Source: Lentzea guizhouensis | Lineage (GTDB): Bacteria > Actinomycetota > Actinomycetes > Mycobacteriales > Pseudonocardiaceae | Direction of reading: 5' to 3' | Length of the DNA: 64,000 bases | NCBI RefSeq assembly: GCF_001701025.1 | Contig: NZ_CP016793.1 | Location: 7,254,001 to 7,318,000 of the forward strand | In this document: positions 13,993-48,730 of the stretch, one piece after another | Numbering within the stretch: position 1 is the first letter of the stretch | Layout of the letters: each line of letters opens with the position of its first letter | Translations under genes and position numbers: made by a program | Notes under the pieces: model-generated | Databases searched by the model: none | The model's input: the letters and a program-made list of their open reading frames with translations, nothing else | Told to the model about the DNA's origin: nothing

Positions 13993-15321
13993 ATGGTGGA
14001 GCACTTACGCGAGGTGCTGGAACGGTCAGCACTCCACAACCACGTGCCCGGCGCACAGCTCGTCGTGTGGCGGGACGGTGACGTCTGGGAGTTCGAGTTC
14101 GGTGAGGAACGGCACGGCACCGGGTGGGCGGTGGGGCGGGACAGCAAGGTGCCCATCGGGTCCATCACCAAGACGTTCACGGCGACGCTGCTGATGGTCC
14201 TGGTGTCCGACGGCGACGTGGAGCTGGACGAGCCGGTGGTGGAGTACCTGCCTGAGCTGCGGCAGGCGCTGGGGAGCAACGCCGACGTGCTCACCGCCCG
14301 CCACCTGCTCAGCCACACCGGCGGACTGCCCTCGGAGGTCGTGGCCCCGCCCGACGGCCGGGTGGCGCTGGCGGCTTCCGTGCAGGACGTCGTGCAACCG
14401 CCGGGTGCGGGTTTTTCCTACTCCAACACGGGATACGCGCTCATCGGCCGCCTGATCGAGGTGGCGACCGGCATGACGTGGGCGGAGGCGGTCAAGACGA
14501 TCCTGCTCAAGCCGCTCGGCATCGACCTCGGGTTCATCGCGGGCCAGGGGAGTGCCGTCCTGCCCACGGCCAGCGGCCACACGGTCAACCACGCGCTGCG
14601 CCTGATGCGTCCCGTCGAGCAGGAGCTGGCGCCGGTGGAGGCACCGGCCGGCGGTCTCGCCGCCAGTGCCGCCGATCTCGTCGAGCTGGCGAAGATGCAC
14701 CTCGACCCCCGGCACGGCGGCATCGACCCCGGTCTGGTCACGCCGGAGCACCTCGCCGAGATGTGCCGTCCGGTGCCGGGAGCGGAACCGTTCGGGCTCG
14801 CGGACGGGTGGGGTCTGGGCCTCGCGATCTTCCGCGGTCACGGCACCGGCTGGCTCGGGCACGACGGCACCGCCGACGGCACGTCGTGTCACCTGCGCCT
14901 CAACTCCGAGACGGGCACGATCGTCGCGCTGACCGCGAACTCTTCCACCGGTGCGGCCCTGTGGCGTGACCTGCTGCCCGAGCTGCGCGCCGCGGGCATC
15001 GACCTCGACGAGAGCGAGGCGACGATCGACGCCGAGCCGAGGGCGTCCATCCCGCGCGAGTGCACCGGCACGTACGTCAACGGCGACACCGCGTTCGAGG
15101 TAGTGGTCGAAGGTGACGAGCTGCACCTGGTCGTCGACGACGAACCGGCCGCACGGCTGGCGGTCCACGACGGGTTCGTCTTCTCCGTGACGGACCTGGC
15201 CAACGGTGCGACCGGCCGTCCCGGGCGCTTCCTGCGCGATCCCCGCAGCGGCCGGATCGACCGGATCCAGATCGGCGGCAGGGTCGCGGGCCGGCGGCAC
15301 CGCGAACGCGACGTGGCCTGA
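13993..15321 (+). CDS. Penicillin-binding-protein-type thioesterase, predicted trans-acting peptide cyclase (SurE-like)
   Basis: 442 residues from ATG 13993 (GGAG five bases upstream); no signal peptide, so cytoplasmic. The serine beta-lactamase/PBP fold shows S57-I-T-K60 (SxxK), Y143-S-N145 (YxN) and H290-D-G (HxG). A C-terminal ~105-residue lipocalin-like beta domain follows (RECTGTYVNGDTAFEVVVEGDEL...). Length and domain order match stand-alone PBP-type thioesterases such as SurE of surugamide synthesis, which release and macrolactamise NRPS-bound peptides ending in a D-residue. Here the gene lies directly before an NRPS pair that has no thioesterase domain and ends in an epimerase. Family knowledge and context agree; the alternative is a beta-lactamase-like esterase or D-aminopeptidase. 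Function inferred with good confidence. Confidence 0.85.
   Translation: MVEHLREVLERSALHNHVPGAQLVVWRDGDVWEFEFGEERHGTGWAVGRDSKVPIGSITKTFTATLLMVLVSDGDVELDEPVVEYLPELRQALGSNADVLTARHLLSHTGGLPSEVVAPPDGRVALAASVQDVVQPPGAGFSYSNTGYALIGRLIEVATGMTWAEAVKTILLKPLGIDLGFIAGQGSAVLPTASGHTVNHALRLMRPVEQELAPVEAPAGGLAASAADLVELAKMHLDPRHGGIDPGLVTPEHLAEMCRPVPGAEPFGLADGWGLGLAIFRGHGTGWLGHDGTADGTSCHLRLNSETGTIVALTANSSTGAALWRDLLPELRAAGIDLDESEATIDAEPRASIPRECTGTYVNGDTAFEVVVEGDELHLVVDDEPAARLAVHDGFVFSVTDLANGATGRPGRFLRDPRSGRIDRIQIGGRVAGRRHRERDVA

Positions 15322-48730: not shown

Follow-up and report, generated by a model that had tools for sequence, protein, structure and literature searches.

We analysed a 64,000-nucleotide stretch of DNA from the soil actinobacterium Lentzea guizhouensis (contig NZ_CP016793.1, positions 7,254,001 to 7,318,000; the whole stretch is called the window) and find that a five-gene operon within it very probably directs the synthesis of a head-to-tail cyclic nonapeptide, which would be released from its nonribosomal peptide synthetase (NRPS) by a stand-alone thioesterase (TE) of the penicillin-binding protein (PBP) type. 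The operon spans 13433-49968 in the order mbtH, cyclase, NRPS1, NRPS2 and major facilitator superfamily (MFS) exporter. An earlier sequence-only reading had placed a cyclase gene before two NRPS genes. That order holds, but NRPS2 is split here into two open reading frames (ORFs) and its module 7 is broken; the mbtH-like gene and the exporter at either end had been overlooked. The features are as follows, with modules written in adenylation (A), thiolation (T), condensation (C) and epimerisation (E) domains.

13433..13636, plus strand: mbtH-like gene of 67 aa with a GTG start (PF03621, 69 bits, cut-off 27); probably assists adenylation domains
13993..15321, plus strand: PBP-type thioesterase (SurE/Ulm16-type peptide cyclase by sequence), 442 aa (PF00144)
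15402..28976, plus strand: NRPS1, 4524 aa, modules 1-4 (Pfam, motifs, pocket codes)
28973..48730, plus strand: NRPS2, modules 5-9, broken here (ORFs 28973-39055 and 39275-48730)
36980..39400, plus strand: broken zone, module 7 (three-frame translation, alignment with four relatives)
38422..38586, plus strand: tandem array with 2.5 copies of a 66-bp unit, within the A-domain linker of module 7 (Tandem Repeats Finder)
44321..48727, plus strand: module 9, approximate limits, C-A-T-E with Asn-type code and terminal epimerase (motifs and Pfam)
48727..49968, plus strand: MFS exporter, 413 aa (PF07690, 112 bits; PF05977, 105 bits)

A SurE/Ulm16-type cyclase

The product of the second gene is, as judged from its sequence, a PBP-type thioesterase of the SurE/Ulm16 type. 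Its 442 codons carry the motifs S57-I-T-K60, Y143-S-N145 and H290-D-G, and the catalytic Ser, Lys, Asn and His (S57xxK60, Y143-S-N145, H290; tetrad as listed in PMC11735501) align with those of SurE and Ulm16. An AlphaFold model built from 121 sequences (pLDDT 92) places a hydrolase domain at residues ~1-337 and a lipocalin-like domain with eight strands at ~359-434. Frame, motifs and model agree with the PBP-fold protein with SITK, YSN and HDG motifs and a lipocalin-like tail that had been described from the letters alone. Its proposed cytoplasmic location is consistent with the lack of a hydrophobic leader, as judged by Kyte-Doolittle hydropathy only (maximum 15-residue mean of 0.45 among the first 59 residues); by the same measure the protein is unlike a secreted class C beta-lactamase.

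The solved structures of SurE and Ulm16 align to the model as far as residue 435, covering both domains at 36-40% identity; over aligned residues Ulm16 reaches 40-44%, somewhat above SurE. In searches, SurE (E 6.7e-77) and Ulm16 (3.9e-73) are followed by the next solved structure at 6.2e-27. A tree of 42 rows puts the window protein together with SurE and Ulm16 in a group of 28, separated from the 14 other rows by a branch with support of 99/99. Those 14 comprise a single class C beta-lactamase, three S12 proteins from the same genome and ten distant S12 proteins. The branch of the AmpC row is very long, and in one thioesterase row (L058) an internal stop was replaced by X. The tree does not include D-peptidases or D-amino acid amidases, which score much lower by sequence and fold. 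The grouping with class C beta-lactamases that had been named as a possible refutation is absent, and the protein scores 71.8 bits against a class C beta-lactamase NCBIfam equivalog cut-off of 415. On the basis of tree, score and synteny (see below) we reject a beta-lactamase or DD-peptidase.

Residue G220 of the window protein corresponds to G235 of SurE, which lines the D-residue pocket (by alignment, allowing for entry numbering that differs from the chain index by 20 residues). This glycine is invariant in a 21-sequence alignment and conserved to at least 90% in the 121-sequence alignment.

A nine-module line ending in an epimerase

NRPS1 reads A-T / C-A-T-E / C-A-T-E / C-A-T (modules 1-4) and NRPS2 reads C-A-T-E / C-A-T / C-A-T-E / C-A-T / C-A-T-E (modules 5-9), so that the nine modules counted earlier are borne out by nine readable A and nine readable T domains. 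Pfam searches (E <= 0.001), which covered NRPS1 and four in-frame pieces of NRPS2 but not the short stretches between these, gave no domains other than C/E, A and T apart from a PapA_C match below threshold; there was no TE or reductase. This fits the proposal that NRPS2 ends without a thioesterase, reductase or terminal C domain. A whole-genome search with PF00975 found 19 places, none within the window and the nearest at 7386490, ~84 kb past the end of NRPS2; Pfam and this search leave no hidden TE of that kind in the window. A T-motif match at 13787 and two histidine-motif matches within A domains were dropped as chance.

The last domain was predicted to be an intact epimerase, and all four of its motifs are indeed present (HHLVVDGVSWR, EGHGRE, VGWFT and FNYLG). 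Across the five E domains, HHLVVDGVSWR, EGHGR[ED] and VGWFT are kept in all, and the FNYLG pattern is matched in three, the last one included. The C domains that follow an E domain have HHVLLDGWS (4/4), and the remaining C domains have HH[IV]VTDGWS (4/4). Epimerase and condensation motifs are consistent at 8/8 junctions and give the pattern L-D-D-L-D-L-D-L-D. At the domain level the chain would thus carry a C-terminal D-residue, from the terminal E domain, and a free N-terminal L-residue, from a first A-T module that has neither C nor E. The start with an adenylation domain had also been noted before, and the proposed combination of a stand-alone enzyme, a C-terminal D-residue and a free N-terminal L-residue is found in the predicted line.

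Predicted residues and proposed mechanism

Pocket codes were read by alignment, with the tenth letter assumed to be K in every code. Modules 2, 4 and 5 have DAYWVTGTFK, module 3 has DFWNVFMVHK and module 9 has DLTKLVEVGK, which we take to be codes for Val, Thr and Asn, respectively. The module 1 code DAYFVTVTFK is that of SurA modules 1 and 3, which load Ile according to the surugamide residue order in an excerpt of PMC11012974. Modules 6 and 8 share DTEDLLFVDK and module 7 has DAESLLLVDK; the acid-rich pockets suggest basic residues, a guess at best since the surugamide Lys code, DVSDRLGVEK, differs. The nearest solved A domain, that of linear gramicidin synthetase, gave no assignment for residues 6-8. 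The predicted core is cyclo(Ile-D-Val-D-Thr-Val-D-Val-X-D-Y-X-D-Asn), where X and Y are perhaps basic; its calculated mass is 625.380 plus residues 6, 7 and 8, or 1009.665 if Lys occupies all three positions.

In the proposed pathway, NRPS1 would load a free L-Ile-type residue on its A-T module, and NRPS1 and NRPS2 would extend the chain to a nonapeptide of the pattern given above, the last residue being epimerised to a D-residue, predicted to be D-Asn. The D-ended chain would then pass from the last carrier protein to Ser57 of the cyclase, as in PBP-type thioesterases generally (PMC11735501). Attack by the free N-terminal amine would yield a macrolactam, and the MFS protein would export it.

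Comparison with known systems

The system resembles SurE and surugamide biosynthesis in having a stand-alone cyclase with PBP and lipocalin-like domains, the same catalytic residues, an A-T start, the same Ile code and a C-terminal D-residue. It differs in that SurA/SurD make an octapeptide and SurB/SurC a decapeptide, whereas the window has nine modules in two genes and another predicted sequence, ending in D-Asn rather than in the D-Leu of surugamide; unlike in surugamide, the cyclase gene precedes the NRPS genes. Of the codes that were read in SurA, the window shares that for Ile but not those for Ala and Lys. The sequence-only reading had stressed that the product would be larger than surugamide (eight residues). 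Nine modules are present, but this is no record, and the size argument is weak because rings of 8 and 10 residues are natural products of SurE, whose engineered G235L variant closes a nonapeptide of unrelated sequence (PMC11735501).

Ulm16 (ulleungmycin, 8FEK) shares the family and the two-domain fold but acts on a hexapeptide (PMC11735501). BifB (biffamycin) has a SurE domain of the same cyclase family, which in the excerpted account of PMC13285481 is joined to the C-terminal end of the NRPS and yields a cyclotetrapeptide whose last residue is Gly, whereas the window enzyme is separate. We also came across an NRPS of 3020 aa (L141:3326-12388) with a C-terminally fused PBP-type cyclase, YSD in place of YSN and an MFS gene after it, along with 16 similar fused protein clusters. 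It resembles the BifB arrangement, as far as the excerpt of PMC13285481 describes it, and we do not regard it as new. Class C beta-lactamases, S12 DD-peptidases and D-amino acid amidases have the hydrolase domain fold and the SxxK/YxN motifs, but their fold match is to the first domain only and their sequence scores are far lower.

Judged by title and abstract start, the open-licence papers searched gave no description of this cluster or peptide family. The name 'dechlorocuracomycin' is listed for L. xinjiangensis and L. pudingi in an excerpt of PMC9120177; both species carry the window's cluster, to which the name may refer.

Relatives, synteny and frequency

The line is present in three genera, Lentzea, Umezawaea and Saccharothrix. 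Within the genus, the cyclase is found at E <= 1e-120 in 7/24 genomes, this one included. Nucleotide matches to six Lentzea-group relatives begin at ~13.12 kb (13.41 kb in one of them) and end at ~49.93 kb; beyond this block the window shows no similarity to the flanks retrieved for the relatives, save for a short Lsr2-like stretch at ~50.0-50.18 kb. Cyclase, NRPS1 and MFS genes keep the same order in all ten relatives whose clusters were compared (six Lentzea-group, one Umezawaea and three Saccharothrix). All nine pocket codes are identical in two of them (G018, G012); one position of module 7 differs in G007, G015 and the Umezawaea genome (G382), and modules 1 and 7 differ in G023. In G016 a broken frame makes the codes of modules 6 and 8 unreadable, and among the other seven module 7 differs. 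Saccharothrix G095 and G099 differ at modules 5 and 7, and G099 also at module 1; one C motif of G095 falls outside the pattern used.

Further support for a peptide-synthetase context is provided by a contig scan with family-alignment patterns, from which the best 80 of 165 confirmed loci were kept (not a random sample). NRPS domains (condensation, adenylation or epimerase) lie in the flanks (<=10 kb) of 48/48 best loci (L013-L060), with only a C domain before the contig edge at L043 and the NRPS upstream at L052. They lie in the flanks of 0/32 more distant loci (L061-L092), 7 of which are shorter than 17 kb.

In a frequency survey (E <= 1e-60, four candidates scored per genome), a cyclase relative was found in 129/390 genomes of the window organism's family (18/46 genera) and in 63/392 Streptomyces-genus genomes, evenly drawn from a larger set. 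The latter agrees with the ~15% of Streptomyces strains given in an excerpt of PMC13285481, and the comparison suggests a roughly twofold higher frequency of the PBP-type enzymes in the window organism's family than in the sampled Streptomyces-genus genomes. Among plasmid records, 1791 match at E <= 1e-5, of which only 34 have a single match region spanning 80% of the query; among the matches listed, the best is from Streptomyces nigrescens (44%), and class C beta-lactamases match at ~27-30%.

Three side observations concern these genomes. The record 'Nocardia sp. NRRL S-836' (L017/G016), which has the cluster, falls within Lentzea by genome search, and its name looks wrong. A nonapeptide line distinct from the window's, with nine modules and a PBP-type cyclase, occurs in a third Saccharothrix genome, probably S. 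carnea (G082, L154-L156), with the same L-D-D-L-D-L-D-L-D pattern, the same DTEDLLFVDK-type code at modules 6 and 8 and other residues elsewhere. S. albidoflavus (G390, the genome of L055) has three PBP-type cyclase genes, on contigs C8, C14 and C30; that on C30 is SurE (98% over 102 residues compared), and those on C8 and C14 adjoin other NRPS lines.

The broken NRPS2 and alternative explanations

Frame breaks rule out two intact NRPS genes in the window, a description that is kept for the relatives. The first NRPS2 ORF departs from the homologous frame at ~37.02 kb and the second begins within an A domain, with module 7 spread over frames 2, 0, 1 and 2 in turn. The frame changes at ~37.02 kb, within the tandem array at 38.42-38.59 kb and at ~39.26 kb. 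A compensating pair at ~39.35 kb is seen against 4/4 relatives; comparable pairs also show up in the intact regions when these are aligned with one to three relatives. In the three relatives compared for it, the A-domain linker of module 7 is shorter than in the window. Since NRPS2 is a single frame of ~6,500 codons or more in 5/6 Lentzea relatives, the break would be an assembly error or a recent lesion.

With module 7 broken as it is in the sequence, the strain may not make the peptide, provided that the breaks are not assembly errors. That the cluster is a dying pseudogene here, with real lesions in module 7 and no nonapeptide in this strain even though the relatives would make one, is a close call that we put slightly below even. 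Within ~2.4 kb there are several frame changes as well as the tandem array, and the mutual agreement of the array copies is only 76%, which does not look like a simple base-calling error. Elsewhere in the genome the broken zone is matched best by module 9 (75%), followed by places at 68-70%, so that repeat-polishing is a weak candidate for the cause. However, the rest of the line is open, and the share of substitutions at third positions is similar in broken (0.55-0.67) and intact pieces (0.60-0.64), suggesting that selection acted until recently and that any lesion is recent.

Two further alternatives concern the pathway itself, and we consider both improbable. The PBP-like enzyme could be a hydrolase (an esterase, D-peptidase or beta-lactamase-like protein) beside the NRPS genes, the peptide leaving as a linear acid or otherwise. 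The catalytic residues are indeed common to S12 hydrolases, the Pfam label is only 'Beta-lactamase', and an esterase (IS11, see below) shares the fold of both domains. The low class C score, the grouping with SurE and Ulm16, the NRPS genes adjoining every one of the 48 family loci and the lack of any other release domain found by Pfam in the line make this very unlikely. Scarcely more probable is a line that is not colinear, or works with another NRPS, so that the product is not a nonapeptide: SurE and PenA do each serve two NRPS lines (PMC11735501), but in 10/10 relatives the exporter directly follows this single line, after cyclase and NRPS genes, and the C and E motifs are consistent along its entire length.

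Several observations weigh against the cyclic nonapeptide that we favour. The pocket glycine is common to Ulm16, which accepts a C-terminal Gly (PMC11735501), and is therefore no proof of D-selectivity. The esterase IS11 matches model residues 1-436, and thus both domains in fold, so enzymes other than cyclases can have this two-domain shape. Residues 6-8 are unassignable, with codes unlike that for Lys in surugamide, and the last E motif of Saccharothrix G099 lies outside the pattern used. In the window, NRPS2 lacks one continuous reading frame, and the sixth Lentzea relative (G016) is broken too, at other modules.

Implications of the alternating pattern

With five D-residues, L at position 1 and D at position 9, 4 of 35 patterns reach the 8/9 heterochiral junctions predicted for this ring, which is the maximum for an odd ring. 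Ile and the three Val residues would form a hydrophobic arc of the predicted ring, and residues 6-8 perhaps a basic one. Designed amphipathic cyclic D,L-peptides stack into membrane-active tubes, and we entertain, as a speculative and rather unlikely idea, that the product is their biological counterpart, a natural ring of maximally alternating chirality. The Lentzea and Umezawaea lines share the D/L pattern, as does a Saccharothrix line with different residues, and the pattern makes ring stacking a simple, testable structural question. The kind of pathway is known; the product family and its alternation of chirality may be new. With five PBP-type thioesterases characterised in vitro by 2024 (PMC11735501), the window adds to this family a recurring, compact nonapeptide line with its own cyclase. 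A native nonapeptide cyclase accepting D-Asn, if that is what the enzyme is, would be a useful biocatalyst.

Genes at the edges of the operon

The mbtH-like gene was located through a family search of the genome itself and lies 5' of the cyclase gene in the clusters of 7/10 relatives. A minus-strand ORF at 13235-13864 was rejected as a gene: it has neither codon-position bias nor a Pfam match, and its conserved stretch contains mbtH on the other strand. At the other end, the start codon of the exporter overlaps the stop of NRPS2.

Next to the exporter gene, a 64-residue ORF at 49982-50176 on the minus strand consists of an Lsr2 dimerisation domain only (PF11774, 77.8 bits). An Lsr2-like relative sits at the cluster edge in 5/6 Lentzea relatives; its frame continues into the C-terminal part in G023 and G012 and stops or diverges in others. 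The ORF may be a silencer or anti-silencer linked to the cluster, and the genome has two further Lsr2 domains at other places. An open frame with RHS repeats (PF05593) at 2-1996 on the plus strand runs past the left edge of the window.
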